Positions 21,538-55,492 of a DNA stretch of 64,000 nucleotides are shown piece by piece. A program made the position numbers and the translations under genes. The number at the start of each line of letters is the position of its first letter. Position 1 is the stretch's first letter. The stretch is from Tetradesmus obliquus (Eukaryota > Chlorophyta > Chlorophyceae > Sphaeropleales > Scenedesmaceae): assembly GCA_030272155.1 (NCBI GenBank), contig CP126201.1, positions 5,132,501-5,196,500 of the forward strand, written 5' to 3'. The notes beneath the pieces were generated by a model. That model saw only the letters and a program-made list of their open reading frames with translations, was not told where the DNA came from and searched no databases.

Positions 21538-24500
21538 ATGGGTGGCATCAAGAACAGGGATGAGAAACGCAAGGCAGCCAAGGTGTTCAGGTGCGGCCAG
21601 CGCTGCACAGCAAGCAGTGCGCGTGGTGGCACCTCAGTGAGTGGTTTTGCAACCTGTTGACATGTGCGTTGCTGTCATGTGCCTGCACATGATGGAGCTG
21701 CTGGCACTCGCCTGGGGGAAGTATGCACGTGTTTCTCTGCCAGTGTCGGGTGAAAGCCAGGCATCTGCAAGCACCTGCTGCTGTGGATCGCTGTGCATGC
21801 AGCTCTGGTGGTGGCGGTGGCGCCAAGGGCCCAGCCATCATCGACAAGCGCGGTCAGGAGGAGAAGTGCCCCCACTGCGACAGGGTGTTCAAGCAGAACA
21901 ACAGGCTGAAGGAGCACATAGCAAAGCAGCATGCAGACCAGCAGCAGGACAGCATAGCAGCAGCAACAGCAGGCGCAGCTGTTCAGCAGCAACCACAGCA
22001 ATCAGGGCCAGGCCGACCGGGCAATGCTGGCGCAAGCAGCAGCAGTAGCAGCAGCAGCCACCAGCCTGCACAGGTGGGTGGGTGCAGTGGGTAACCCAGC
22101 AGCGATTTTGTATTGTTTTATTTTTACACGCTGTACCACTGTATGGCGAGGGACTGCTGCGTTTCAGGGGCGCAGATGCCGATGTGCTATGCTTGTGGCA
22201 AGGACCAGCTGAATGTGCTCTGCTTGCCACAGAGTGCACTGCGCGTGCTGTGCAGCGAGCATGCATCGTAGCTGGTTGAATGCACTGCACATGCTTGCCG
22301 TTGCCGCTGCAGGCAAAGCCCGCCAGCGCTGGCAGCACTGCTGCTGGCAGGCCACCCGCAGGAAGCAGCAGCAGCAGTGGCAGCAGCAGTGCCAGGGCCA
22401 GCGGGGCTGCACCTGCAGCTGCTGCAGCTAGTGCAAACAGCAGCAGCAGCAGCAGCGGCGCCATGTTTGATGTGGGCAGTCGCGGGGGCTTCTACACTGA
22501 GAAGTCCCCCAAGCTGCTGCTGCACGAGTGGTGCACGCAGCAGAAGCGGCCACGGCCCAAGTTCAAGGCGGTGCCGCTGGAGGGCGCGCAGGATGGCGCT
22601 TTCCGGTGAGCACAGCAGCCAGACACCAGCACGGAACTGGTGGCTGGTGCAGGGTAGCAGGAGGCGAGGGTGGCAGGTGCACACCATGTGAATACTACAG
22701 GTCGCAAATGGATTTCTGCTGTGCGCTTCACACTAGCGTGCACAGCCATGTCAGACCTCCGCAGCAATGGCAGTATGCCAGCTGAGGTTGTTCTGTTGAC
22801 ATCATGGGCGTCATGTGCACAGCTCCATTGTTCTGTTGACATCATGGACGTCATGTGCACAGCTCCATTGTTCTGTTGACATCATGGGCGTCATGTGCAC
22901 AGCTGAGGTTGTTCTGTTGACATCATGCGCGTCATGTGCACAGCTGAGGTTGTTCTGTTGACATCATGCGCGTCATGTGCACAGCTGAGGTTGTTCTGTT
23001 GACATCATGCGCGTCATGTGCACAGCTGAGGTTGTTCTGTTGACATCATGCGCGTCATGTGCACAGCTGAGGTTGTTCTGTTGACATCATGGGCGTCATG
23101 TGCACAGCTCCATTGTGGGTGACCACCTCCCTCTGAGACAGCTGCCTGTGTAGCGGGTTGCTGCTGGTGCAATGTTCTTGTCCGCAACTCTGCGCTGCCG
23201 CTGCCTGCCTTGTGCTGCTGCTGCTGCCAGTGCGCGCGTGGTGCTGCCTGACCCCAAGCACCCTGGCAGCGACAAGGACCTGGTGCTGTGGCTGGACAAG
23301 GACTGCGCAGCAGCCAGCGAGGAGGAGGCGCAGCAGCGGGGGGCGGTGGCGGCGCTGGTGGCGGTGGCGGGGCAGCGCAGCTACGACTACCTGCTGCCGG
23401 CGCGCTACAAGCCGCTGTGGGGGGAGCTGGTCACCAAGGTGGGATGCAGCCACGGCCCCCAGTGGGCTGCAGTGTGTGCGCATGGGTGATGTGGGTTAGG
23501 CACTTGTGTGTAGTGCTGGTGAGCAAGCATGAGACACGCTGGTGCTGCTGCTGCCTTGCTTCGCAGCGGAGTTCAATCTTCTTGCACTAGCCATCAGCCA
23601 GCTTGCCGCCCGATAGGCGTTGCTCACAGCGCTGCCTTCTCCTTTGGTGACCTGACACAAGTAGCTGTGGTGTCTCTGGTGGTTGCGGGTTGCCCTGACA
23701 GGCACAGACACGCGCAGAGGCGCAGGCACGTGCGGCAGCGGCAGCAGCGCAGGCCAAGGCCAAGCAGGCGGCGCAGCGGGCCGCCTCAGCCAGCCGCGCG
23801 CCTGTTGCCGTGGTCATGTCTGACAAGCAGCGCCAGGCGGTGGAGGGGCTCATGCAGCAGATGGCACTGGACGACAGCACAGGCGAGCCCGGGGCAGCAG
23901 CAGCCGCTGGCAGCAGCAGTGGTGTAGCTGCGGGGAGTGAGTCTGAGGAGGAGGTGGAGCTGCGGCGGGCGTTTGTTGACGCGCTGGTCAAGGCAGGCTT
24001 CAGCGCAGCGGACGCCACCTCAGCGGTGCGTGCTGTGGGCACATCAGCTGGCAGGGATGCAGCAGCGGCTGCCTCTGCTGCCACCGCTGCTGCGTTCAGT
24101 GGCGGGCGCGGCGTGACGCGCGTGTGGCGCAGCCATGACGGGCTGCAGCCCTACCTGGACTGGCTGTGCCTGGCGCTGCCCGTGGAGCGGCTGCCCGCAC
24201 GCTACAGGCCAGGTGAGGCGCAGGCAGTCAGGCTGGCACAACAGCAGCATGGACCAGCAGCACCACGGCTAACTTCACTCTGCATTGGTTGGGATTTTGG
24301 TTGCATGGTGGCAGTGCCACCTGGCCCTTGCCGCTGACATCAGCAGCATTGCTTGTGCCAGCAGTACAACTGGCTGACTACTGTGTTACAAACCAGCAGC
24401 TCACGGTTGGCGCTGTGTTGCTGTGCTGCTCTGCAGGCGGCAGCAGCGGCACTGTCGGTGTGCTGCGTGTGAACAACCCAGCGGCAGCTGGCAGCAGTGG

Positions 24501-30200: not shown

Positions 30201-32257
30201 ACGTGCTTGTGGCCCTCTGCTGACTGTGCTATGGCTGCCGCCTCCTGGCGCTGCCTGCAGGCTGCCCTGCCCCCAGCCTGTCCCAGGTGCTGTCCTGCCT
30301 GCTGACGCCGCCTCCCGCTGAGGCCGTGGCTGGTGCTGTGTCCCAGCTGGTGGCGCTGGGCGCGCTGGCGGTGACGCCCTGGGGGGAGGGCGAGGCGCTG
30401 ACGCCCCTGGGCAGCCACCTGTGTGCCATGCCCATGGACGCTGCCCTGGGCAAGGCGCTGCTGTACGGCTGCATGCTCAGGTGGGACGGCTGGCGTGGTG
30501 TCGCATGCTCAGGTGGGACGGCTGCATGCTCAGGTGGGACGGCTGCATGCTCAGGTGGGACGGCTGCATGCTCAGGTGGGACGGCTGCATGCTCAGGTGG
30601 GACGGCTGCATGCTCAGGTGGGACGGCTGCATGCTCAGGTGGGACGGCTGCATGCTCAGGTGGGACGGCTGCATGCCCAGGTGGGACGGCTGCATGCTCA
30701 GGTGGGACGGCTGGCGTGGTGTCGCATGCTCAGGTGGGACGGCTGGCGTGGTGTCGCATGCTCAGGTGGGACGGCTGCATGCTCAGGTGGGACGGCTGCA
30801 TGCTCAGGTGGGACGGCTGCATGCTCAGGTGGGACGGCTGCATGCTCAGGTGGGACGGCTGCATGCTCAGGTGGGACGGCTGCATGCTCAGGTGGGACGG
30901 CTGCATGCTCAGGTGGGACGGCTGCATGCTCAGGTGGGACGGCTGCATGCTCAGGTGGGACGGCTGCATGCTCAGGTGGGACGGCTGCATGCTCAGGTGG
31001 GACGGCTGCATGCTCAGGTGGGACGGCTGCATGCTCAGGTGGGACGGCTGCATGCTCAGGTGGGACGGCTGGCGTGGTGTCGCATGCTCAGGTGGGACGG
31101 CTGCATGCTCAGGTGGGACGGCTGCATGCTCAGGTGGGACGGCTGGCGTGGTGTCGCATGGCGCTGCAGGCAGTGTTCTCTGGGCTCTGTTGAGCAATAG
31201 GTGAAAGGCAGCGTTGCTTGCAGGCTGGGGACACGGCTGTAGCTGCCGTCCATTAATCAAACGCAAGGTAGCTCAAGCACATGTCTTGTCTCTGTTCACG
31301 CTGGAATTGGTTGATGTGTCATGTTCACACATCTGCTTGCTCCATCGCCTGCTGCGTCCTGCTGCGCAGGTGTGCCAGCCCGCTGCTGACCATCGCTGCC
31401 GCCTTGGGCCATGGCCGGCCCATGTGGGTCAACCCGCCACCTGACAAGCGCGGGGAGGCAGCAGCAGCACGCCAGGCGCTGGCGCGGCAGGTGCGCGGGT
31501 GAACGGCTCGCTCTCTTCATGTCAGCATGTGGAACCGCAGCAGTTAAAGAAGCACCTGCACATTATACATGCTCTGCTAAGGCCTGCTTGCCTTACCAGC
31601 ATGACACGGGTGCGCGGCTGCGAGGCATGGTTTATGAAAGCTGTGTTTGAGGCACCACGGCAAGTGACAAACCAGTGCACATCACGACTCCTATCTGCTG
31701 CCTGCTCATGCATCATCGCACATTCAGTTGTGCGCGGCACAAGCATCAGGCTGTGCATCTCTCAACTCGCAGTTTTGCCCCAGAAACATGCACTGCTCAG
31801 CCACCTTGCACTGGCTCACCTCCCTGCTGCCCCGCGCTGCGCTGTGCGCCCCGATACCCCCCCCTCCCCCCGACCCCCCCCCCGCAGGCCTACAGCCAGC
31901 GCAGCGACCACCTGGCAGTGGTGGCCGCCTACAACGGCTGGGTGGCGGCACGCGCTGCAGGGGGCAGGGGCGCTGGCGGGGACTTTGCTCGGCAGCACTT
32001 TGTGTCTGAACAGGTGCGGGGCACAATGCTTGAACATTGGTCCGTTTTTTGGCATGTCTGGATTTAGTGTTCAATTGCTTTGACATCACGTGCTTGCTGC
32101 ACAGCACATCCTTTGGAGTACGTGCAGTCCGCTGGCCGGCACAGCGTGCGCACGATGCGCCTGCAGCATGCACGTAGAGGGCCTGTATAATTATGCAAGG
32201 CGCGTCAAGGCACCATACCTCCTGGACACGGTAAACCATCTCTGGTTTGCGCGGTGC

Positions 32258-38480: not shown

Positions 38481-38483
38481 CTT
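38481..38483. other. Left target-site duplication (CTT) of the CACTA element
   Basis: CTT directly precedes the left terminus CACTATGG and is matched by CTT at 55490-55492 directly after the right terminus. Three-base duplications are the rule for CACTA elements. Confidence 0.85.
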
Positions 38484-38533
38484 CACTATGGTCACTGAAA
38501 TGTCCAGCTGGATGTCCAGTCATGTCCAGTTGC
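38484..38533 (+). repeat. Left terminal inverted repeat of the CACTA element
   Basis: Matches the reverse complement of 55440-55489 at 45 of 50 positions by eye; the first 12 bases (CACTATGGTCAC) are identical. The diagnostic CACTA terminus is present. Confidence 0.88.
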
Positions 38534-38670
38534 TGGGGTGCAACTGGACATGTCAAGTGGCATGTCCAGTGTGAGACTGGACATGGCCATGTCCAGCGTG
38601 TGACTGGACATCAAGTGGTAGACTGGACAATCAACTGGACATGCAACTGGACACGCAACTGGACGTGTAT
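38500..38670. repeat. Left subterminal CTGGACATG repeats
   Basis: About 13 copies of TGGACA or its complement TGTCCA in 170 bp, in both orientations, usually within ACTGGACATG. The same motif fills the right end (55,368-55,475) and appears nowhere else in the window at comparable density. Likely binding sites for an element-encoded protein (inference by analogy with En/Spm TNPA sites). Confidence 0.8.
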
Positions 38671-39044
38671 TACAGCACACAAAATGATGCTGATGCGTGC
38701 ATAGTTCATGGTAAAAGAAGCCACAGCATGCAACCGCATGCCTTTGTCGTGCCAATAGATGGCTCTTAGCACTGGTGACCGGTCATGCATGCTGCTACAA
38801 TACTGCACTTGTGCAGTACTTGCTTGAATGCAGTACACAAGAGCAGACTGCAAATAAAAGGCTTGCAGGACACACAAAACACAATCAGCAGCATCAGCCA
38901 TACAGTCAAATGCAGCTGATACAGACCTCTACTGCTCAGCAGCACCTGCTGCTACCATCAACCAGCAGCAACTACTCCACATCAACTTGTACTATCCACC
39001 AGAGGTGTGAACCAACCGCTGTACCTGCGAATCAACAACACACC

Positions 39045-39347
39045 CTACGTCTCATACTCTGCAAACTTGTTATTTACTCCCGCCCCTGCCCTCCTACGCC
39101 TTCCACCTGCTGCTGCTGTTGCTGCTGCTTCCGTAGCATCCAAGTCGTCTCCGTCACTGGCTGCAGCTTCAAACTCGTCCTCTTCGCCGCCGCTGCTGCT
39201 GCTGCTGCCTGCTTCTGCCTCCTCTTCTGACTCCTTAGACTGCTTCTTCTTCCTGGGCGGCTGCTTTCCCCCCTTGCCCCCCTTGCGCTTCTTCGCTGGT
39301 GCAGCCTCTGCTGCAGCGTCTGTAGCAGGCGCTGCAGCGGATTTTGG

Positions 39348-39384
<37 letters not shown>

Positions 39385-40325
39385 TTGCGCTTCTTCAGGG
39401 CCTTAGCTGCAACACTGCTGCCCTCCAGATCCTTGCCCTGCTGCTGAGCTGCCTTGGCCTCTGCAGTTGGCAGCATCGCCAACAAGCCCTTTCCAGCGTC
39501 CTTGCGCAGCTGCTCAACAGTTGCGCGCTCCCCTGTCTCGAGGGCCTTGCCCAGCGCAGTTCCCTGCAGGACACCATGAGTAGCAGCAGATGCAGCGGCA
39601 TGCATACCTGTCAGACATGTTGAATGAGCTTGAAGTACACAGAGCAACATGAGCCCCGACCAGCGTATCCTGCAGGGAAACAGGTGAAGCAGCAGCTGCA
39701 GCGGCATGCACATAAGCCAAGTGCTGCCTGAATGAACAGCTTGGTGAAGAGCACTGTGCAAGAGCGACAGTTATGTTGCAACACTTTGTCATTGAACTGC
39801 AACAAAACGCCATCGGTGCACAACTTCACTTACCTTCGCCTCCTTGAACCAAAATATACGCGCCCGTGCTGTCTGCGGATCACATCATGTGGACCGAGCC
39901 CTTTAGGGTTGGCTCACAGGCTCATTGGGCGCATTCTAAAATGCATACCAGGATAAAGCGAACAAGTAAACCAGCACCCTGAAACACAATAACACTTACC
40001 CTCGACAGTCCCAGCCGCTCCCGTGCTGCAGGAGCCATGTTGCGCCTCCCCAGCATCTCAGCCATCCTACTCCAAGCAGCACCGCCTGGCGAGCCCTTGT
40101 CAGCACCAGCCTCGCTGGCTATGGCAGGCTTGGCTGAAGACGGTGGGTGCTGGTCATGCACAGCAGGCCTGCTGTGCGCTGTGCTAGGGGTGCGACCTAC
40201 ACCTGCAGCAGCTGTAGCAGCTGATGCCTCACCGCTGGCGAAGCTCTGCGTCTGACGCTGTTGCACCTGCTGCTGCTGGTGCTGCTGCTGCTGGTATGCT
40301 TGCGACTGTCTGTCAGCGCTGCGCA

Positions 40326-40359
<34 letters not shown>

Positions 40360-43149
40360 AACAGTACGGCTGATGCTGCTGCTTGTTTGCAATGGTGTCG
40401 CCTGCTGCAGCTGCTGCTGCTGCTGCTGTTGCTGCAGCTGCTGCTGCTGCTGAGCCGCACTGCTGCTGCTGCTGCTTGTTTGCAACGCTGGCGCCTGCTG
40501 CTGCTGCTGCTGCTGCTGCTGCAGCTGCCGCTGCTGCAGCTGCCGCTGCTGCTTCTCAAGAGCCTTGTCCAGCACTGCATCTAGGGGATCTAGCTCTTCA
40601 CCTGCATCTGCCGCCACAGCAGCCATGCTGCCGGTGCTGACACTAGCAGTGCTGAGTCTGCCTGCTGGCGCTGCCCCGGGAGCCGAATCGAGCCCTGCCT
40701 CAGTCACTGCACCACCACCTGAGTCCTGCATGCTGCCAGGTGCCTAAAGCGGGGTTGATCAATATAGCACAGGGCACATCGTGTTACTTTCACGAACATG
40801 AGCGAAGACGACTGCAAGAGAGCGCACTGCTGGCTAAACAAATGCCAATACACCAAGAAAGAACAAGTGCAGATGAACACCAATTGTCATGTGATCTGAG
40901 CATCCTTGAAAACACAGGGGCTGCAGTAGCTGTGGTTGCTATCATTGCTGCATTCTGCATGGCATTGAACGCCTCTGCCTGGCCTATGCTGCCAAACATG
41001 GGTTTACCCACCTGAAGCTGGCCTGCGGGTGTTGTGCCACCTCCAGTGCTGTCTGGTGCCTTCTGCCATACAGTGGGCATGGCATGCATGTCACGTGCAG
41101 AGGAGGACGACACAAACCGGCAAGCTCAGCAAGTGTGTGAGTTATGAGTTGTTCAAGTCCTTCAGCGGGGTACAAACGACAGGGTGATTATGCTGCATCG
41201 ATTGCTGCCGACTGCCCGACTCAAAGGTGCTGTATCTGCCAAAGCAGAATGTGCACTTTCCTCAACGTCAGCAACTACCAACGTACACCTCGTCAACCTT
41301 GCAGAGCCATGAAGCTGCCAACAGGCTCATGTTAACAAGTTTCTGTCCAAGCATGGTTGTTCATCACTTCACCTGTACTGGGAACCAGCAGTCAACTAGG
41401 CTGACTGGGCCTGGCTGCTGGCCGGTCATGGCCTCCTCTGCGCTGACAGCTGCCGCCAGCTGACGTGCTGTTACACCCTGTGCTGTGCCTGCATGCTGTT
41501 TGTCGGCAAACTCGGCCAACGGCCTGAACTCATCTGGCAGCGGCGCAGGCTGCTCATGCCGCCGCTGGTAGAGGTCCCAATACTTCTGCTTCCATGCATC
41601 TGCTGCTGCTTCAGCCTCGCTGAGGTTCTTGCGTTTGTTGGCACTAGCTGGCACTGCTGCTGCCGCTGCTGCGTTCGCTGCTTGCAGAACACCCTCTGCT
41701 GCCTCTTCGCCCAAGCTGCCCTCTTCGAGTGCATTGGCTGCCGCTACAAGAGCACCTGCCGTCAGAGCGTCAGCGGCAGCATGGGCGTTCTCGATGCTCT
41801 TGGCCTGCTGGCAGGCCTTCCTGCAGCAGCAGCAGCAGCAGCAGCAAGAGGTTTGCAGCGATTGATGTATTTGGAATCCTTTCTGTGATCATCAGTGGTC
41901 CTCCAGGTGCTGTACGCTGCTGCTGCAGTGAGATAGCAAGTAGGGATGATACAAATGCCCTTGCCCTGGCTGCCACTTTCCCATGCCGCCACTACTACTG
42001 CGCATCTCTTAGCACTGTACAGCAAGAAGACACATGGGAATGCCTGCCACATCTAGTTTTCAGGCCTTTTGTCACTTGCCTGTTAATCAACCTCACAGCA
42101 TCCGTGGGGCTCATGCCACAGCCGCGCTGCAGCACCAGGCTGATGGCATCCTTCAGTGGCACCCACTGCAGGCCCTCGCCATCAGATGCCGTGATGAACT
42201 GCCCCTTGAAGCTGCTGGATGGATAGTCAATCTCGGGCTGGCTCTCGCTCTCGCCCTCGTCCTCCAGATCGTCTTCGTTGGTCTTGAGCACCTGCAAGGC
42301 ACAAAGCAAACAGGTTGCTGCCCGCATGCCGTAACATGCAAGTGCTGCCACTTCAGCTGCATCTTGTTCACTGCGCGACTTATGGTGGGGTTCTAAGACA
42401 TTGCAGCTGCTGTTCACAACACCATGTGGGGATACCAGTGGACTGCGCATGAATACGCTCTTGTCCATCAATGCTCTGCTAGCTGGTGGGTGTGCTGCTG
42501 TCTCTTTGCAGCTGCAGGCGTACATCTGTAGACGTGCATGCTAGAGAGGTGTATCATGTAGCTGATCCCACCCGAATAGTCATTGTGTGCATCGGCCACA
42601 TCTTGAATGCTATGTCGAGCAGCTTGTTTGGCGTTGGCGGCCCTGTCAGTGCTGCTGCTGTGCTGCTGCTGGCCCTCCTGCCTCTACTTTCGGCCTTGCT
42701 GGCACCTGCAGCGCATCGTATCAACAAGACGCTGAACGTTGTACAAACGACAGCAGCACTTTACAGTGGGTGAGGTTGGCTGTGTGGAGCAGCTGCCTGC
42801 AGCTAGGCCCTTCACCTGCAGGTGCCGCAGCTGTGGCCCTCCCCTTGCTTGCCACCTTGCCCAGCACCTGCAGCTGCAGCCGCAGCTGACCCTCTTCTAC
42901 TGTGGAAACCGCTAATGCGTTACCCTGCAGCACGTTCTTGAGGCACCTCTGCAGGGGAATTACTGCGCCGTTTGTGCTGGAGATCTGAATGTCGTCCTGG
43001 CTTTCTACGCCTGTTTCCTGCCTGATCACGGACAGCACCTCCGCGAGAACTTCTTCTAATGTGTCTGAATCATTGTAAAGCCAAGCGATTTTGAAAGGAG
43101 TGCCACCGTCGATGGCAAACACAATCTCCCTGATCATTGTTCCTGCCAT
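39045..43149 (-). CDS. Second protein gene of the CACTA element, unknown function, 6 exons
   Basis: Exons (minus): 43149-42856, 42291-42080, 41820-41373, 41011-40916, 40743-40000, 39563-39045; 2313 nt, 770 residues, all in phase. Intron 2 uses a GC donor (CAG|GCAAGT). The N-terminal 95 residues (MIREIVFAIDGGTPFKIAWL...) look like a compact alpha/beta fold, possibly ubiquitin-like or PB1-like (weak). Next come an acidic segment ending in a short helical domain (GLQWVPLKDAISLVLQRGCG), an Ala-rich helical region, and a long Gln-rich stretch (about 400-520). The C-terminus is basic (KKRK, AKKRKGGKGGKQPPRKKK), then acidic (EEEAEAGSSSSSGGEEDEFE), typical of nuclear proteins. By position it would be the element's TNPA-like or accessory protein. 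Exon 1 might end 12 nt earlier (CAG|GTGCTG). Confidence 0.7.
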
Positions 43150-43606
43150 GATCTCCACCACCGATCATTAGCAACGCAACCGAAACAAAACGTGCTGCGA
43201 GAAACAAACCGGTCACATCTGCGGGGGGGACTCCAGGAGGGGAAGCATCCGCCATCTGGATCTGGGGTTTGAACTACAGAGCAGTTACATAACATCTCGA
43301 GTCATAAATGGCCAGCTTTGCCTTGTAGAAGAAGAAGACTAGCATATCAAAGGTGTTAATTGATCCCCATGTGGCTGGAACAGTTGGTCTGAGTGTACCT
43401 CTCACATGATGTGCCGTCTTCAGTTGTGCACAAAGGGCTGCACCTGCGCGAGCTGCACATGCAGCACCTACATCTGTAAGGAATTGTCAGCAGAACCCAC
43501 TGCTGTTATGCAGCTGTGTCACCAACTTACCGCTGCACATGTGTGTGTGCATGCAACAAGCGTGAGGCAGCCATGAACAGGTCATCCGCTCCACCACAGC
43601 AGCAAA

Positions 43607-46600
43607 TCAGCGCTGCTCTCAACAGGCATAACAGGAGCACGCGCTGCGCAGCACGGCTGCAGCTTGCGCTTTCTTGTGAGTGGCACCTGTTTGGAGGCTT
43701 GTTGCGTGCATGCTGTGGCAGCCGGGTGTGCTAAGAGTGTCTAGCAGTGCTGTGGATGCAGTGTTGCCGCTGCAGCTGCTGCGCAACGCCAGCAGGTGGC
43801 AGGGGCATGTGTAAGCAAGCGGTGTTCAAGCGCGCACGCCGCCAGCAGCTGCCGGCCTGCATGGCGCCTCCTTCACCAGCACGGCTGATCCGCGCTGCTC
43901 TCAACAGGCATAACAGGAGCACGCGCTGCGCAGCACGGCTGCAGCTTGCGCTTTCTTGTGAGCGGCACCTGTTTGGAGGCTTGTTGCGTGCATGCTGTGG
44001 CAGCCGGGTGTGCTAAGAGTGTCTAGCAGTGCTGTGGATGCAGTGTTGCCGCTGCAGCTGCTGCGCAACGCCAGCAGGTGGCAGGGGCATGTGTAAGCAA
44101 GCGGTGTTCAAGCGCGCACGCCGCCAGCAGCTGCCGGCCTGCATGGCGCCTCCTTCACCAGCACGGCTGATCCGCGCTGCTCTCAACAGGCATAACAGGA
44201 GCACGCGCTGCGCAGCACGGCTGCAGCTTGCGCTTTCTTGTGAGCGGCACCTGTTTGGAGGCTTGTTGCGTGCATGCTGTGGCAGCCGGGTGTGCTAAGA
44301 GTGTCTAGCAGTGCTGTGGATGCAGTGTTGCCGCTGCAGCTGCTGCGCAACGCCAGCAGGTGGCAGGGGCATGTGTAAGCAAGCGGTGTTCAAGCGCGCA
44401 CGCCGCCAGCAGCTGCCGGCCTGCATGGCGCCTCCTTCACCAGCACGGCTGATCCGCGCTGCTCTCAACAGGCATAACAGGAGCACGCGCTGCGCAGCAC
44501 GGCTGCAGCTTGCGCTTTCTTGTGAGCGGCACCTGTATGGAGGCTTGTTGCGTGCATGCTGTGGCAGCCGGGTGTGCTAAGAGTGTCTAGCAGTGCTGTG
44601 GATGCAGTGTTGCCGCTGCAGCTGCTGCGCAACGCCAGCAGGTGGCAGGGGCATGTGTAAGCAAGCGGTGTTCAAGCGCGCACGCCGCCAGCAGCTGCCG
44701 GCCTGCATGGCGCCTCCTTCACCAGCACGGCTGATCCGCGCTGCTCTCAACAGGCATAACAGGAGCACGCGCTGCGCAGCACGGCTGCAGCTTGCGCTTT
44801 CTTGTGAGCGGCACCTGTTTGGAGGCTTGTTGCGTGCATGCTGTGGCAGCCGGGTGTGCTAAGAGTGTCTAGCAGTGCTGTGGATGCAGTGTTGCCGCTG
44901 CAGCTGCTGCGCAACGCCAGCAGGTGGCAGGGGCATGTGTAAGCAAGCGGTGTTCAAGCGCGCACGCCGCCAGCAGCTGCCGGCCTGCATGGCGCCTCCT
45001 TCACCAGCACGGCTGATCCGCGCTGCTCTCAACAGGCATAACAGGAGCACGCGCTGCGCAGCACGGCTGCAGCTTGCGCTTTCTTGTGAGCGGCACCTGT
45101 TTGGAGGCTTGTTGCGTGCATGCTGTGGCAGCCGGGTGTGCTAAGAGTGTCTAGCAGTGCTGTGGATGCAGTGTTGCCGCTGCAGCTGCTGCGCAACGCC
45201 AGCAGGTGGCAGGGGCATGTGTAAGCAAGCGGTGTTCAAGCGCGCACGCCGCCAGCAGCTGCCGGCCTGCATGGCGCCTCCTTCACCAGCACGGCTGATC
45301 CGCGCTGCTCTCAACAGGCATAACAGGAGCACGCGCTGCGCAGCACGGCTGCAGCTTGCGCTTTCTTGTGAGCGGCACCTGTATGGAGGCTTGTTGCGTG
45401 CATGCTGTGGCAGCCGGGTGTGCTAAGAGTGTCTAGCAGTGCTGTGGATGCAGTGTTGCCGCTGCAGCTGCTGCGCAACGCCAGCAGGTGGCAGGGGCAT
45501 GTGTAAGCAAGCGGTGTTCAAGCGCGCACGCCGCCAGCAGCTGCCGGCCTGCATGGCGCCTCCTTCACCAGCACGGCTGATCCGCGCTGCTCTCAACAGG
45601 CATAACAGGAGCACGCGCTGCGCAGCACGGCTGCAGCTTGCGCTTTCTTGTGAGCGGCACCTGTTTGGAGGCTTGTTGCGTGCATGCTGTGGCAGCCGGG
45701 TGTGCTAAGAGTGTCTAGCAGTGCTGTGGATGCAGTGTTGCCGCTGCAGCTGCTGCGCAACGCCAGCAGGTGGCAGGGGCATGTGTAAGCAAGCGGTGTT
45801 CAAGCGCGCACGCCGCCAGCAGCTGCCGGCCTGCATGGCGCCTCCTTCACCAGCACGGCTGATCCGCGCTGCTCTCAACAGGCATAACAGGAGCACGCGC
45901 TGCGCAGCACGGCTGCAGCTTGCGCTTTCTTGTGAGCGGCACCTGTTTGGAGGCTTGTTGCGTGCATGCTGTGGCAGCCGGGTGTGCTAAGAGTGTCTAG
46001 CAGTGCTGTGGATGCAGTGTTGCCGCTGCAGCTGCTGCGCAACGCCAGCAGGTGGCAGGGGCATGTGTAAGCAAGCGGTGTTCAAGCGCGCACGCCGCCA
46101 GCAGCTGCCGGCCTGCATGGCGCCTCCTTCACCAGCACGGCTGATCCGCGCTGCTCTCAACAGGCATAACAGGAGCACGCGCTGCGCAGCACGGCTGCAG
46201 CTTGCGCTTTCTTGTGAGCGGCACCTGTTTGGAGGCTTGTTGCGTGCATGCTGTGGCAGCCGGGTGTGCTAAGAGTGTCTAGCAGTGCTGTGGATGCAGT
46301 GTTGCCGCTGCAGCTGCTGCGCAACGCCAGCAGGTGGCAGGGGCATGTGTAAGCAAGCGGTGTTCAAGCGTGCACGCCGCCAGCAGCTGCCAGCCTGCGA
46401 TGGCACCTCCTTCACCAGCACGGCTGATCCGTGCTGCTCTCAACAGGCATAACAGGAGCACGCGCTGCGCAGCACGGCTGCAGCTTGTGCTTTCTTGTGA
46501 GCGGCACCTGTTTGGAGGCTTGTTGCGTGCATGCTGTGGCAGCCGGGTGTGCTAAGAGTGTCTAGCAGTGCTGTGGATGCAGTGTTGCCGCTGCAGCTGC

Positions 46601-46794
46601 TGCGCAACGCCAGCAGGTGGCAGGGGCATGTGTAAGCAAGCGGTGTTCAAGCGTGCACGCCGCCAGCAGCTGCCGGCCTGCGATGGCACCTCCTTCACCA
46701 GCACGGCTGATCCGCGCTGCTCTCAACAGGCATAACAGGAGCACGCGCTGCGCAGCACGGCTGCAACTTGCGCTTTCTTGTGAGCGGCACCTGC
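43607..46794. repeat. 282-bp satellite array, about 11.3 copies, inside the CACTA element
   Basis: Near-identical 282-bp units; every 282 bp the same 89-codon (+) and 63-codon (-) frames recur, for example from 43747, 44029, 44311 and so on. The central nine copies differ almost only at one base: ctgtatgg instead of ctgtttgg in the copies at 44,535 and 45,381, exactly three units (846 bp) apart. The first copy is partial and the last two carry shared changes (a cctgcgatggcacc variant). It lies between the two element genes. Confidence 0.93.
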
Positions 46795-47740
46795 CAGGCT
46801 TCAAGTTGAAGGCTTGTTGCGATAGCCCTACAAGCATGCTATGGCAGTCTTGTCTCTTAACAATGTCTTGCAGTGCTGTTGATGCAGATTGCATCAAATG
46901 CAGTGCACCTGCAGGTGTTATGCACAATTTTACCATATGTGCATGTGCTATGCATCACCACGCAGAATGGTTCTGTGCTGGCCCATACATCACCTGCATT
47001 GTGTGCTTTGATTGCTGGTTTGCATATTGTGACCGTGCAGCACGATCATGACTGTTAGCATGTGTTGATATAGCAGCGTTGCTACCAGCTTGCTGTATGA
47101 CGTGCCGGCTCAAGTGCTGAACTGCACGTCAATAGCCATTGGCCGCTATGAAAGCTATGTATGCAGAGTTGAGACGCCTGCCAGGTTGCCTGAGCAGCAG
47201 CGCAATGTTTTGGCAATGACTGACTCTTCTTGGTGTTGCGCTCTCAAGCCCTTGACTACAAGCCAAGCTATGATAGCTCAGCGCGCACCAGCACGCGTAT
47301 GTACACATAGTTCATGGTTCAAACACAGTCATTACATGACACGCTCAGCAAACTTTCACATAAAGGAACCACAGATGTGGAGTACTCCACCTACTGGTAG
47401 GTGGCATGCAGCAGCCCCTGCACTGCAGGTGGCACCAGATACTGCAGCGCACACGCACCAGGCAGACACGCGCTGCCATGTAAGCCCTGAACTAATATCT
47501 GCAGCGCACACGCACCAGGCAGACACGCGCTGCCGTGTAAGGCCTGAACTAATATCTGCAGCGCACACGCACGAGGCAGACACGCGCTGCCATGTAAGCC
47601 CTGAACCAGCTGCAGCAGCACCCACGCACCAAGCAAACACACGCTGACATGCAAACCTAGCTCAATGCACTGTGCATGCCACAATGGTCACAAGCGGCGC
47701 TCACAGCGCCTCCACCGATGTACAGCTGCTGCTTGCACAC
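46795..47740. other. Element interior between satellite and transposase stop; contains a 57-bp repeat
   Basis: No gene seen. At about 47,440-47,645 a 57-bp unit (cgcacacgcaccaggcagac plus variable remainder) is repeated about 3.6 times. The last copy is the most diverged. The rest is unique sequence. Confidence 0.6.
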
Positions 47741-50700
47741 CTAGCGCAGCCGGCCGGCCCCACCAGTTGTGAAGCGGAATGGCACAAAAGCTAGGCTCTT
47801 GCCTTCTTCGAATGCGTGCACAAACAGCGGAGCTGCTATGTTCTGCAGCAGGACAGGATAGTTCTGGCCTGCAGTGAAAGAGGACTGCAAAATGCCACCC
47901 TTGCTGTCCCTGCTCATAGTGCTGAACAGCACCTGATCACAGATGTCAGGGTCAGTCAATGGCTGCCGGTACGGCAGGAAGTCACACATTGCCAAGCGCA
48001 ACACCTGCTCACCGGCAGCTGCCGGCAGCGACAAGCGCAGGTAGTACTTCACACGCGCAGCGTACGGCTTGACTTGAGCACCTTCCATGTACAGCACCAT
48101 CACCCATGTACCGTCCCTACTGCGCGATAGTGGGTACAGCGTGCTCGTCGCATAAGTGCCCCCTGGCAACACTGCACGCTGGTACTGCTGCACCACAACC
48201 TCATCCCACCTGCCACTCCACCGCTGCCACTCAGCTTGCGTCAGGTTGATGCGCAGCTTCTCCCTAACAAGGTCCTTCACAGTGCCCCAAGCCTCAGCCC
48301 CAAACGGCTTTGGCGCACCCATGAGGTGCCCCTCAGCCCGCAGTACACTGCGCGGAACACCCAGTGGCGCATCCCTGCCCACATGCTCCTGCCACGTCTG
48401 CAGGTTCAGGTGTGCATACTTGAGCCGCGCCCTGCGCAGCGCCCTGGTCACCATCTCATCAATGATCATCGTCACCTCTGGGTGCGACTTGGTGCCACCC
48501 TTAGAGCGGCCCTTCTTGCCGCCGACCAGCCGCTCAATCCAGAGCTCACCCAGGGGTGCAGTCAGGCCTCGGGATGCAACTTGCATCAGCAGTTGACAAG
48601 CCAACAAGTGGAGGTTGAAGGTGCACAGCTTGCCACCCGAAAGCTCCTGCAGACAGTGCATGGTAAATTTGAATCAGCCAGGTGGATGTCATTTGAGAGG
48701 AAGCCGCACAGCAGCAGCAGCAGCAGCAGCAGCACCATGCACCACTGCACAATGCCTGCCAGCCTACGTTAACTGAGACATGCATGCCAACTGAAAAGAT
48801 CAACAGACCAAAACAAACTGTTGTCGGCTGCATCCTCGCATGCCACACGATGGTTGCTACAGCACCAAAGCGGAAAACCTCACATGCAATGCTTGATCAA
48901 AAACGTAATGCAGTGCAGCATAACAAGCTCACCCCCTCAGCCGCCTTGCAGTAGGCCAACAGCTCCTCGTGCGCCTCCATCGCAGCTAGCAGCATGTGGT
49001 CCTCGCTGTCAAAGGAGTGGTGGGTCATGTGGAACAAGCCAAAGCGCCGCAGGTGACCAAAGCTCTTCTTGACAATGTCCGGCTGCAGCACCTCCTCAGA
49101 GGTGTTGCCGCTGCGATGCGGACGGAACAGCAGCGGCAGGAAGCACTCCAGGGCCCGCGCAAAATCTTCAATCTGCCAGGATCCCTTGCTGCTGCTCAGC
49201 ACATCCCTGGCGGGCCTGTTGAAGTTCGGGTGCAGGCCAATGCCAAGGCCACGGACACGGCCCTTGATGATGCGCCTGGACTCATTGGGCACTTGCGGCA
49301 CCTTGCTCTCCTGCAAGAGACAAAACAAGAAGTGCGCAGAACACGGAAAGCAGAAAGGCATGTCATGCTGAGACGTGCACTAAACGCAGAGAGAACAAAG
49401 GTGGCAGCTAGCAAGCCTGCTAGCAGATGACATCTAAATCTGGGCATGTACAACAACACCGCTTTGAGTTGCCAAGCATGCTGAGCGCATGCTGGTTGAA
49501 CTAATGACATGCTGCAAAGTTTACACTGCATAATATGCAAATGCGTGTGTGTACACATATCGTTGTGGTGTAGCGCAAGGTTTTTAGCTGGACACAGAAC
49601 AGTTTGTGACACTTGCTCACCTGTGCTGCCGCTCCCTTGGCAAAGATGGCCTCCAGAAAGTCCTTAAACACGCCCAGGAAGAACGCGTGACAGAAGGGCA
49701 CGATCCACAACCGGTTGGCATCCACCCAGTACAAATCCTCGCTGAGGAAAGGGCTCAGCCCCTTGAAGGGGGAGTTGTCAGGAGGCTGCACACCAGCAAC
49801 ACGGTACTGCTCTGCAACATGCGCGCGCACGCGGTTCACAAACTCATCCACGTAGCGGTCATCGCCACCGGCAGTCATGCTGCACGTTTTGCCTGCTCCG
49901 TAGCCCTTGGTGATGGCCACTGCATGCCCATACCCTAGATACCGCACCACGTCATCAACCTTGGTCCCCACCATGATGCAGAAGGGGCAAACCAGGTACG
50001 CTGTCCAGGAAGCCACAGTGTACATCAACTTGGCACGCGCAGGGGAGTCCGCATACACAGCCCCCAGCACAGCAAAGTGCAGGAAGGCTGTGCCTGCCAA
50101 GATGGCGGACGTGTTGGGGTCCCGCTCAGCAGGAGTGACATACACGCCATGACCACCTGCAGACAAAGCAGCAGTCATGTGCAGAACAGTAGCAGCACTC
50201 AGTAATGGATACAAGTATACAGCATGCCTGTTTTGCCGCTATACCGCCGATATTGATGAGAACATCATCAAAGCGGCATCAGCAGCATCAGCAGCAGCAG
50301 CAGCAGCGACAGCGGCAGCAGCCGCGCCAGCAAGTACTTCATATATTGCGTAACACAACACCTGCGGCACCACCATCACCAGCAGCAGCGGGCGCAGCTG
50401 CAGACACACACAGCGCGCCAGTGTCAGTGCTGCAGGCATGCCTACCAAGCAGCAGCACACCGGATTGAAAGAGAGACAAGTGCCGGCTGTGCACCTGTTG
50501 CGAGCATGACATGCAAAGCAGCGCGGATCTGCACATAACACAACTGCTTCCAAATGCCGCTACACAACGCTGCTGCGCGCACCTGCGCCATCTGAGGCGA
50601 CGCCGCCACCTCCAATAGCAGCAGCAGCAGTTGCATCACCAGCAGCAGCGGGCGCACCTGCAGACACAAAAAGCGCGCCAGTGTCAGCGCTGCAGGCATG

Positions 50701-53700
50701 CCTATCAAGCAGCAGCACACCGGATTGAAAGAGAAACAAGTGCCGGCTGTGCACCTGTTGAGCATGACATGCAAAGCAGCGCGGATCTGCACATAACACA
50801 ACTGCTTCCAAATGCCGCTACACAACGCTGCTGCGCGCACCTGCACCATCTGAGGCGACACCACCACCTCCAGCAGCAGCAGCAGCAGTTGCATCACCAG
50901 CAGCAGCGGGCACACCTGCAGACACAAACAGCGCGCCAGTGTGCAGGCATGCCTATCAAGCAGCAGCACACTGGATTGAAAGAGAAACAAGTGCCGGCTG
51001 TGCACCTGTTGAGAGCATGCCATGCAAAGCAGCGCGGATCTGCACATAACACAACTGCTTCCCAATGCCACTACACAACGCTGCTGCGCGCACCTGCGCC
51101 ATCTGAGGCGACGCCGCCACCTCCAGCAGCAGCAGCAGCAGCAGCAGCTGCATCACCAGCAGCAGCGGGCGCACCTGCAGACACAAACAGCGCGCCAGCG
51201 TCAGCGCTGCAGGCATGCCTACCAAGCAGCAGCACACCGGATTGAAAGAGAAACAAGTGCCGGCTGTGCACCTGTTGCGAGCATGTCATGCAAAGCAGCG
51301 CAGATCTGCACATAACACAACTGCTTCCAAATGCCGCTACACAACGCTGCTGCACGCACCTGCGCCATCTGACGCAACGCCGCCACCACAATCTTCAGCA
51401 GCAGCAGCAGCTGCATCACAAGCAGCAGCGGGCGCACCTGCAGACACAAACAGCGCGCCAGTGTCAGTGCTGCAGGCATGCCTACCAAGCAGCAGCACAC
51501 CGGGCTGAAAGAGAAACAAGTGCCGGCTGTGCACCTGTTGCGAGCATGCCATGCAAAGCAGCGCAGAATTGCACATCACACAAATGCTTCCAAATGCCGC
51601 TACACAACGCTGCTGCGCGCACCTGCGCCATCTGACGCGACGCCGCCACCTCCATCTTCAGCAGCAGCAGCAGCTGCATCACCAGCACCTGCAGACACAA
51701 ACAGCGCGCCAGCGTCATCGCTGCATGCATGCCTACCAAGCAGCAGCACACCGGGTTGAAAGAGAAACAAGTGCCGGCTGTGCACCTGTTGCGAGCATGC
51801 CATGCAAAGCAGCGCAGAATTGCACATCACACAAATGCTTATAAATGCCGCTACACGCTGCTGCGCGCACCTGCGGCATCTGAGGCAATGCTGTCATCTT
51901 CAGCAGCAGCAGCAGCAGCAGCGGCAGCAGCAGCAGCAGCAGCACCACCACCAGCAGCCGCAGCAGCCGGCGCACCTGCAGAGACGGACACAACGCGCCA
52001 GCGTTAGCAATGCATTAGCGTGGAACAAGCACCAGCTGGAAGACTGAGCAGTGCATATCAAACCATGCAATCCAACATGCACGTTCAAAACGTGTTATGT
52101 ACCTGTGGGCTGAGGTGGCGCAAGCCGCACTATGTCCGCCGTCAGTGGTTGCAGGAAGGCATCCATCACTGTGGGCTCTGTCGGGCCCTCGATCAGCACC
52201 GTGAGAGAATGCCACTCCGCCCATGCTGACGCGCCATCAGGAAGGCACTCGTACCTGCAGCCCGGCAACGGCAGTGGTGTTAGCATTGCGCCATGCCGAC
52301 ACACAGTTGTGGCTCCACAGAATGTTTATTTAGAGCGCTCTTCTCCAGCATGCAAGCATCATTGTGTTTCATCAACTTCAGCCACACACAGCGCTAGTAT
52401 TTATGGTTGCGACCCTGACATACCTCCACCAAATGCCGCCTGTGGACCACTGTCTGTTCTTGAACGGCTGGAAGAAGTCGCCGCCCACTGCGATCACGCC
52501 ATGGCCTGGTCCAGCTGCCGCACCACCTGTGGCTTTGTTAACGCGCTCCCATTCTGGTGAGGCCCAGAGGGAGCCAACCACCTTGGCCTTGGCGGTCCTG
52601 ATGGCTACCACGAAGTCTGGGTCCATCATCAGCTCCTTGATGGACTCCTGTGGACGGATGTACCAAAACCTCTGCAAGCAAACAGTCACAATCATCAGGG
52701 CAGCAAGACACTGCTGCTGATTTGCTAGTCAGCCTCCCTAGGCGCTGGCGTTATGAAATGCCTGCGTAGAATCAGGCAAAATGCTAGCCCGTGTCCTGGA
52801 CTGTTTCGCGTCAAGCGGCGTCATCAAGAGTGCACCATGATTAACTCACACAGCTGGAGGACTTATGGCCAGAGCATCTGCCGAGACACCACCAGCCCTG
52901 TCAAGCACCCTCCTGCTCACTCACCCTCACAGGCACCTCCTTGCCCAGCACAATGTTGAAGCGCTTGCCTCCACACTTGCCGCAGCAGTCATGCCGGTGA
53001 GCCTTCCACTCGGAGTGCGGGGTAGGGGGCCAGCCGGTGCACCCCAGGAGGCAGGAGTGCCACTCGTACTTGCTGGCAGGCGCCACATCCAGCACCTTCT
53101 TCATCATGTACAGGCTCTTGGGGAGCGTGTGGTCCTGCAGCAGAAGACAACAGAGCTTCACCACCGCATGCACGGCACCATGCCAGCAGTAACTGAGCCA
53201 ACATAATCCGCGTGCACATCAATGTCGATACTGTTACTTACAGCTGTGCATACCATATCAACAACACCAGCCAGCGCTAGCTAGCACCTGCACACATGCT
53301 GATATGTATGCCTTGCCTCACAATATACATGTCACGACAGCAAAGAGCATTCCAATGCAGCAGCTCTCACCTGAGGCAGCGCAAACTCAGTCATGAAACC
53401 AAGGATGTCGTTGAAAGCCGCATTGGTCATGCTGTGCTCATTCCAGATGGAGATCAACTTGTAGACAGCATCCATGTTGTTGACACGTGCTCCTGGGAAC
53501 AGCGGTTTGTCAGCATGCTCCTGCCACCAAGTGTGCTTGGGCAGGCAGCGTGGCATGTCCTCTGGCCTGGCGTAGTCCTTGGCAGTTATAGAGGGGTGAT
53601 CCCAAAAAAAGCCAGAAGATGACATGCTGGCCCGAGCTGCAGACGCAGCAGCATCACCAGGAGTGGCAGCTGCTGCTGCTGCTGCAGCGCCATCACCAAC

Positions 53701-54951
53701 AGCGGAGGCAGCAGCAGCGGCAGCAGCAGGAGTACGCATACCACCTGCTGCTCCAGCTTCACATGCACCACCCGTCACTGCTGCCCCGTCAGCAGCAGCT
53801 ACTGTTGCATCACCAGCACCAGCCGCGGCAGCAGCAGCGGCAACAGCAGCTGCGGCATCTTGCCCGGGTTGATCGGCACCACCGGCTTCATCATCTCCCG
53901 CTGCCTCGTCTTCCTCAGGCTCACTGCTAACATCCAGGTCGTCCAGCTCCTGGAGATGCTGCTGCGCCAGCTGGCGCACCCACGCTTCCTGACCAGGTGT
54001 GAACTGCTGCTGCTGAATACCAGACTCCAGCTCTGACCCAAGGTCAACTTGCTGCAACTGCTCGTCGTCGTCGTCATCATCACTGCAGACTGCGCGAGCA
54101 CCGAGCCTGACAGCCCCGGCTGCCACAGCAGCTGCGACCGCTGCGCGTGCTGCACGAATGTCGGCAGCAGCAGCTGCCACCACCTGCTCGCCAGCAGCTG
54201 CATGCACTGCTGCTGCAGCGGTTGCAGGGGTGCCATTGGCTGACACAGCTGCTGCTGCAGCAGCAGCAGCAGCAGCAGCAGCCTGAGCATCACCATCACC
54301 ATCATCATCAGCAGCAGCCACATCAGCAGCCTGCTGCTGCAGCTGCTGCTCGTATGAGGCAGATCCGCCAGCGTCATCTCCAAGTGATCCACTTGCTGCA
54401 GGCGATGCTGCTGCTGGCGGCGGTGCTGGTGCTGCTGCTCCTGATGGTGGTGCTGGTGCTGCTGTTGCTGCGGTTTCTGCTGCGGCTGCTGCCGCTTCTG
54501 CTGCTTCTGCTGCTGCTGCTGCAGCTGCTGCTCCGGCTGCTGCTGCTGCAGTGTGCTGTCCGCCACTTGCAGCCTGCTGCAGCACACCTGCAACAGGAGG
54601 CAGGCAGCCCACATGATATGCCAGCAGGTGAGTGAATGTTCATGGAAAATGGCGGGCAGGCAACTTCTTCTGGCCATGGGCCTGCAGGCCAGACAGCTGG
54701 CTGACAGCTGCAGGTGTCACTGCATCTGTGCATACGGTACCTGCGAGTTCCTGGCGCTCCGTGGCATCTGCTTGTGTGTTTGCAGGTTGACATTTTTCAG
54801 GCCCATGCTTTTTGTACCATGAGGAATAGCTGCAGTCTTCCCATTTGCGGCAGAGGGGGCATTGCCTCTCCACCGTCTCAGGTTGGAGCGTTGATGGACG
54901 CGTAGGCGCGTCGTGGTAAGCATTAGGACGTTTAACTTTGGTTTTAGGCAT
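47741..54951 (-). CDS. Tnp2-like CACTA transposase, 15 exons, intact frame
   Basis: Exons (minus): 54951-54741, 54587-53371, 53134-52925, 52671-52424, 52254-52103, 51975-51871, 51688-51623, 51437-51360, 51174-51094, 50915-50841, 50657-50583, 50397-50362, 50156-49621, 49310-48933, 48646-47741; 4374 nt, 1457 residues, every junction in phase. N-terminus MPKTKVKRPNAYHDAP, then a CPLC...H...C zinc-finger-like cluster, then about 300 Ala/Asp/Gln-rich residues. Tnp2 signatures follow: PLFPGARVNNMDAVYKLISI, LPKSLYMMKKVL, CCGKCGGKRFNIVLGKEVPV, RFWYIRPQESIKELM, GGDFFQPFKNRQWS, LTVLIEGPTEPTVMDAFLQP, and YADSPARAKLMYTVASWTAY with CPFC. GGDFF and YADSP sit where Tnp2 catalytic Asp residues fall. It cuts and pastes the surrounding element. 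Exons 6-12 are tandem duplicates coding an Ala/Gly-rich linker inserted in the catalytic domain. Confidence 0.88.
50340..51990 (-). repeat. Tandem array of seven exon+intron units (about 251-287 bp each)
   Basis: Acceptors (minus) at 51975, 51688, 51437, 51174, 50915, 50657 and 50397; donors close exons of 105, 66, 78, 81, 75, 75 and 36 nt. All are multiples of three and all are phase 1-1. Each unit holds TGTGTCTGCAG before the exon and CAG|GTGCGCGC after it. The exons code variants of GAPAAAGDAAAAAxxGGGVASDGA. The introns (about 185 bp) are also closely similar. Confidence 0.88.
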
Positions 54952-55367
54952 GTATCACTTCATCCGGGCAACCACTCAGCGGAGGTGGCCGTGAATGATA
55001 CTGCAGGCCTGGCAGACCGAACTGCTGTCAGTGAAACCTGAACGGCCTTAAAATCTATGTTATTGTACTGAGCAATCTGGGAAACAGCCAATGCGTTGTC
55101 CGATCAACAACACATCGCTTGCACTGATGGTTACATGACACGGTAAGCACTGTCGCGCATGTTGCCATAGTAAAGACGCTGGTTCAACTTCTAAAGCAAT
55201 AATTTAATATTCAGCTGTACAGAGAACAGAGACCCCGCATGGTCTGACAAACCCTACAGCAGGCGTCCTTTAGAGCATATATATGCGGTGAGCTTGTATA
55301 AACACAGATTAAATACGTTGTAGGTTGCTTTCAGGCCATGTATCACAAGTCAACGCTCCAGCAGCAG

Positions 55368-55475
55368 CACATGTCCAGTCGCAAAGCGCACAGGACATGA
55401 GACTGGACCTGCACACCCACCAACTGGACACGATTTGGTGCGACTGGACATGCCTGGACATGCAGCTGGACATCT
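55368..55475. repeat. Right subterminal CTGGACATG repeats
   Basis: About eight copies of TGGACA/TGTCCA within 110 bp, matching the left-end array at 38,500-38,670. Confidence 0.8.
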
Positions 55476-55489
55476 CGGTGACCATAGTG
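55440..55489 (-). repeat. Right terminal inverted repeat of the CACTA element
   Basis: Ends GTGACCATAGTG on the plus strand, the exact complement of the left terminus. About 90% identical to the left repeat over 50 bp by eye. Confidence 0.88.
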
Positions 55490-55492
55490 CTT
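55490..55492. other. Right target-site duplication (CTT)
   Basis: CTT immediately after the right terminus, equal to 38481-38483. Removing the element and one CTT would rejoin GGAAGGGCCTT with CCATCGCATG. Confidence 0.85.

Follow-up and report, generated by a model that had tools for sequence, protein, structure and literature searches.

Introduction

En/Spm of maize is a CACTA element which encodes a transposase and a second protein, TnpA, which binds the subterminal repeats and joins the ends of the element. The soybean elements TgmR* (13 kb) and Tgmt (20.5 kb) carry CACTA tips, a 3-bp target duplication and subterminal repeats, and combine a multi-exon transposase gene (10-11 exons predicted for TgmR*) with a second gene, as described in the excerpted account of PMC4219821. 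The corresponding excerpt of PMC5738225 presents internal tandem arrays as a usual feature of CACTA elements, which can also seed satellites according to that of PMC7320549. With respect to algae, Idaten of Volvox carteri is a CACTA element, as cited in PMC4158355.

The element presented here lies in a stretch of 64,000 nucleotides (the window; C11:5132501-5196500) of a 104.66 Mb genome of 17 contigs. It is very probably an autonomous cut-and-paste DNA transposon of CACTA (EnSpm) type which has very recently been active in this genome. It shares the features listed above with En/Spm as well as with TgmR* and Tgmt. While those elements encode a recognisable tnp2 domain, the present one has no Pfam match in its transposase, contains predicted tandem mini-exons, and has a second gene without a Pfam domain. 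The kind of element is known and its details are unusual. It belongs to a complete and probably algal CACTA family which comprises autonomous as well as non-autonomous copies with hardly any divergence, and which is a candidate tagging tool. The initial annotation had placed the DNA in an alga. This fits the 52 matches, counted by exon, which the genome gave to chlorophyll a/b-binding proteins; only a cyanobacterium was positive among 14 controls, and the matches indicate a photosynthetic host rather than its kind. Taken together with the size of the genome, they make an alga the probable host.

Ends of the Element

The element occupies positions 38484-55489 of the window, exactly 17,006 bp, as the initial annotation had claimed for its CACTATGGTCAC and GTGACCATAGTG termini. 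The left terminal inverted repeat (38484-38533, plus strand) starts with CACTATGGTCAC and the right one (55440-55489, minus strand) ends with GTGACCATAGTG. The two ends are identical at 12/12, 18/20, 27/30 and 45/50 positions, the last of these giving the exact value for an identity which had been put by eye at about 90% over 50 bp. The CTT triplets reported on both flanks were found at 38481-38483 and 55490-55492 as the target-site duplication. Subterminal arrays, also reported at both ends, consist of seven CTGGAC and five GTCCAG motifs on the left (38502-38664) and of five CTGGAC and one GTCCAG on the right (55373-55471), and are presumed to be binding sites. Twelve such motifs lie in the left ~180 bp and six in the right ~120 bp, giving 18 in the outer ~300 bp versus seven in the other ~16.7 kb. 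With CACTA...TAGTG inverted ends, subterminal repeat arrays and a 3-bp duplication (in seven of eight copies, see below), the element is of CACTA type by structure and behaviour. Zisupton duplicates 8 bp of its target according to the excerpt of PMC12730594, and Zisupton/KDZ was set aside as a candidate class since the duplication here is 3 bp.

Transposase Gene

The two genes which had been claimed inside the element were both modelled with open frames on the minus strand. Gene 1, encoding the transposase, spans 47741-54951 in the model, with 15 predicted exons and 1457 aa. Its exons were placed with the help of homologous loci of the same genome, identified by a protein search with the exon-13 frame (L045/L054, 83%; L046, 80%; L047/L048, 48%, with L047 lying within L055; L049, 47%; L050, 46%; L051, 43%; L052, 33%; L053, 32%). 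Exons 1-5 (54951-54741, 54587-53371, 53134-52925, 52671-52424 and 52254-52103) are followed by seven mini-exons and then by exons 13-15 (50156-49621, 49310-48933 and 48646-47741), with predicted introns which are GT-AG throughout. Just past the transposase stop codon lies a 57-bp tandem repeat (47442-47651; 3.7 copies by TRF).

The transposase gene is open in all eight full-length copies found in the genome, of which those in the window, C5, C7 and C16 were modelled and the other four show no differences in this region. Compared with the window copy over 758 codons of the core, dN/dS was 0.0023/0.0149 for C5 (12 substitutions), 0.0035/0.0149 for C7 (14) and 0.0046/0.0205 for C16 (19), a ratio of 0.15-0.24.

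Blocks with D, D, C(2)C and E recur in the window copy and in eight homologous loci wherever these could be aligned, which was not the case for each locus at each block. They read G.DF.QP (in six sequences), [AG]DS[PA], C(2)C as CPFC, CAFC or CGYC, and W[IV]E[RN]L; the exceptions are L054, where a stop replaces the presumed catalytic E, and L050, which reads ADSAA at the second D. Plausibly, these blocks are those of a DDE enzyme in which C(2)C follows the second D, the catalytic residues themselves being putative assignments. An H(3)C is also conserved (NLHLLAC, NLHLLTC, NLHVLVC); exon 14 contains an H(3)H as well, which more distant relatives do not keep. A distant relative of the transposase, at L053:1006-3156, is an intronless open frame of 717 aa which spans the presumed catalytic blocks.

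Searches with profiles and structures were negative within their scope. No Pfam family was found for the spliced transposase core up to an E-value of 10, single exons gave nothing useful either, and of the relatives scanned, L053 matched no family and one frame of L052 matched none of the transposase families. A profile search of the genome with PF02992 gave no match, the 14 controls being silent too. A scan of viral and prokaryote contigs with an exon-15 profile confirmed no relative, and no relative of the transposase was found among the solved structures searched. The Tnp2 transposase of the initial annotation is supported by its motifs (DDE and C(2)C) and lacks Pfam confirmation.

The superfamily place of the transposase is accordingly less firm than the type of the element, and a reading which we regard as possible, if less probable than membership of EnSpm, is that the element moves like CACTA with a transposase from a lineage of its own, as yet undescribed and placed close to Plavaka/EnSpm or next to CMC, the membership then being structural only. 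The missing Pfam transposase match speaks for such a lineage, as does the conserved H(3)C, which takes the position before the last E that H(3-4)H holds in CMC transposases according to the excerpt of PMC12730594. Against it, EnSpm is matched by the CACTA tips, the 3-bp duplications, the layout with two genes and a C(2)C which follows the second D. Under the EnSpm assignment, the gene 1 product would act as a DDE transposase which cuts at the CACTA tips and joins the cut tips to a target opened with a 3-bp stagger.

Predicted Tandem Mini-Exons

The tandem exons noticed in the initial annotation were found as an array of predicted mini-exons at 50362-51975 (minus strand), encoding an Ala/Gly/Asp linker which is presumed to lie between the first and second catalytic aspartates. 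Within it a 263-bp repeat (50374-51940) duplicates an exon plus its intron. The seven mini-exons of the window copy measure 105, 66, 78, 81, 75, 75 and 36 nt, and all run from phase 1 to phase 1. Five were found in each of C5 and C7; in C16 four were matched by script, at the spacing of five; and the related locus L054 has three, of 75, 84 and 69 nt. Since the mini-exons are all of phase 1-1 and are multiples of three in length, the transposase frame survives changes of the array.

We consider it less likely than not that the array is an intronic repeat which is spliced out whole, with apparent exons that are accidents of a GCT-rich sequence. The frame is also kept when all mini-exons are skipped, and slippage of GCT alone would yield lengths in threes, both as this explanation would have it. 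Against it, the seven units of the window, C5, C7 and the diverged relative L054 all show open phase-1 exons together with their splice borders, and while the mini-exon lengths are all multiples of three, five of the six unit spacings in the window are not. Should transcripts confirm the mini-exons, the array would be a clear case of varying exon number inside a working transposase.

No report of tandem mini-exons in CACTA elements was found in the open-licence literature searched. The initial annotation had held the combination of satellite and tandem exons to be unlike that of described elements; internal arrays are already known (in the excerpt of PMC5738225), and only the mini-exons look unusual. 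A bolder proposal, which we advance as speculation that is rather more likely wrong than right, is that the element represents a distinct CACTA-type lineage in which the stretch between aspartates 1 and 2 is built of frame-neutral mini-exons of copy-variable number (seven, five, and three in a decayed relative). Unequal exchange or exon skipping would then tune the linker of the catalytic core and leave the enzyme unbroken, in parallel with a private, fast-changing satellite.

Second Gene

Gene 2 was modelled at 39045-43149 (minus strand) with eight exons (43149-42816, 42705-42572, 42291-42080, 41820-41373, 41062-41012, 40743-40000, 39872-39834 and 39563-39045) and encodes 826 aa. The first six exons were built with the homologue in L054/L056, and one of the predicted introns is GC-AG. 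The protein has a polyQ middle and a lysine-rich C-terminus, and matched no Pfam family up to an E-value of 1. The frame is open in seven of the eight copies and is broken in C7 under the present model; in C5 and C16 it ends two codons early relative to the alignment. By analogy with TnpA, the product is presumed to be an accessory DNA-binding protein, and most likely binds the CTGGACA/TGTCCAG repeats and gathers the ends as TnpA does in En/Spm.

Copies in the Genome and Recent Activity

The initial annotation had named, as its refuting outcome, the absence of any second copy of the termini combined with that of an empty site at this locus in any strain or relative; contrary to the first part, seven further full copies were found. 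When the left 217 bp were used as query, eight places in the genome matched at 100% (rounded) and 32 at 86-89% among the best 40 of 114 candidates; the right 150 bp matched beside all eight of these copies, seven at 100% and one at 93%, among the best 40 of 176 candidates. The eight full-length copies lie at different sites, each with both ends paired in the same order and ~15.5-17.5 kb apart, and their 12-bp tips are all the same. The copies, with their flanking triplets, are those of the window (17,006 bp; CTT/CTT), C13 (17,009 bp; AAG/AAG), C12 (17,006 bp; GTG/GTG), C11b (15,878 bp; TGG/TGG), C7 (15,478 bp; CAC/CAC), C16 (15,743 bp; GTA/GTA), C5 (17,469 bp; CAG/CAG) and C2 (C2:7114235-7131240; 17,006 bp), the last of which is flanked by TAG versus TCA, without a target duplication. 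A perfect 3-bp duplication is therefore seen in seven of eight copies, with seven different triplets, and the chance of at least seven matches in eight at 1/64 each is ~2e-12. This probability and the paired recurrence at seven other places put the ends of the element beyond chance. The state of C2, identical to the window copy and without duplication, is as would be seen after recombination between copies or a deletion in the flank.

The copies of the window, C12 and C2 match one another at every one of their 17,006 bp. Across the window, C13, C12, C11b and C2 there were no mismatches in 13,520 aligned sites outside the satellite, and the only indel there was one CAG triplet in C13. A second lineage comprises C5, C7 and C16, which differ among themselves by 0.2-0.5% and from the copies of the first lineage by 1.2-1.8%. 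As five copies show no point differences outside the satellite, movement must have been very recent. The lack of point differences among these five copies outside the satellite, the open genes (1457 aa and 826 aa in the models of the window copy) and the low dN/dS support the earlier suggestion of an autonomous, possibly mobile copy, and the element may be active at present. It is doubtful that the sequence is intact but already silenced, with its recent burst over, as the five copies without point differences outside the satellite place the latest transpositions very close to today. That the identical copies reflect segmental duplication or assembly error instead of transposition, as three copies 100% identical over 17,006 bp might suggest, is most improbable and was set aside, because the printed flanks differ, each matches its own place in the genome, seven copies have their own 3-bp duplication, and intact targets exist for two.

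Empty Sites

A search for empty sites had been suggested as a check in the initial annotation. In the host genome it succeeded for two sibling copies and gave no such counterpart of the window site. As query, the two flanks of every copy were joined around a single copy of the target (those of C2 were simply joined), and the best 40 of 77 candidates in the host genome were scored. Five places hold the C11b site without an interruption; two of them match at ~100% over 240 bp, two more at ~100% over 238 bp, and the fifth at 90%. The C7 site is likewise unbroken in a tandem array with units of ~5.5 kb (C7:4994043-5044058), ten of which match it at ~100% over 240 bp. Both of these empty sites hold a single target copy. 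Since the genome thus contains both target sites in a form without the element, these two siblings demonstrate directly that it inserts with a 3-bp duplication, which the window copy does not. C16 is inserted in repetitive sequence, and six places (69-85% from the flank start) as well as shorter ones cross its junction. Among the best 40 of 77 candidates from the host genome, no match crossed the junction for the sites of the window, C13, C12, C2 or C5, so that the window's own site, which would read GGAAGGGCCTTCCATCGC when empty, had no uninterrupted counterpart there.

The flank of C11b reads like part of an RNase H of the kind carried by retroelements (Pfam PF00075, E-value 4e-4, below the curated cut-off). 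An Rfam search of locus L024, which includes the right flank of C7 in the ~5.5-kb array, found no RNA gene.

Satellite between the Genes

A satellite with a 282-bp unit lies between genes 1 and 2 (43606-46793; 11.3 copies by TRF, 12 seed matches). Twelve seed matches were counted in each of the window, C13, C12 and C2, eight in C11b and C7, nine in C16, and 14 in C5, where one spacing is double. Comparison of C11b with the window copy revealed four satellite units fewer (8 versus 12) and no point difference outside the array. Satellite length thus varies between copies without other point differences, which offers a natural test of the rate of array change in transposons. The satellite was rejected as coding sequence, as there are stops in all six frames. 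Both this array and that of the mini-exons may lengthen and shorten through unequal exchange or replication slippage.

Tandem arrays and seeded satellites are likewise described for CACTA elements of grasses and for Jozin of Chenopodium in the excerpts cited above (PMC5738225, PMC7320549). By contrast, the 282-bp satellite seems confined to the element: the 88 matches reported from the genome all fall within its eight copies (eight of eight candidates scored).

Related Elements

A non-autonomous family of 2.7 kb shares the tips of the element (84-91% over the outer ~150 bp). At least 37 full-length members at 96-100% were present among the best 40 of 166 candidates scored, and three copies, including the query's own place, were at 100% over 2,601 bp. 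The interiors of L031-L033 and L035 showed no match to the element except for short stretches, mostly of CAG type. The element in L035 measures 533 bp and has the same tips. Of six non-autonomous elements read at both ends (in L031, L032, L034 and L035, and two in L033), four are flanked by 3-bp duplications and two are without. The proteins of genes 1 and 2 probably also move the 2.7-kb elements, which have the same tips as the 17-kb element. A version of the 2.7-kb element measuring 4,963 bp, with extra internal sequence, was seen at L034:1001-5963; it adjoins another element end at 669, near the start of contig C9.

The relative in L054/L056 (C8:5575000-5588499) has transposase exons 3, 4, 13, 14 and 15 which are ~81-88% identical to those of the window, as well as a homologous gene 2, an array between the genes, the three tandem mini-exons and, in L054, a 57-bp repeat after the transposase stop at the same place as in the window element. 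In contrast to the window element, it has a stop in exon 15, the 13.5 kb which were read show no clear CACTA ends, and its intergenic array, of 345 bp in 2.5 copies, replaces the 282-bp satellite, to which it has only short matches.

Outside the element, the window also contains minisatellites at 30503-31145 (21 bp), 22779-23109 (41 bp) and 1513-1739 (36 bp), and many CAG/CTG microsatellites.
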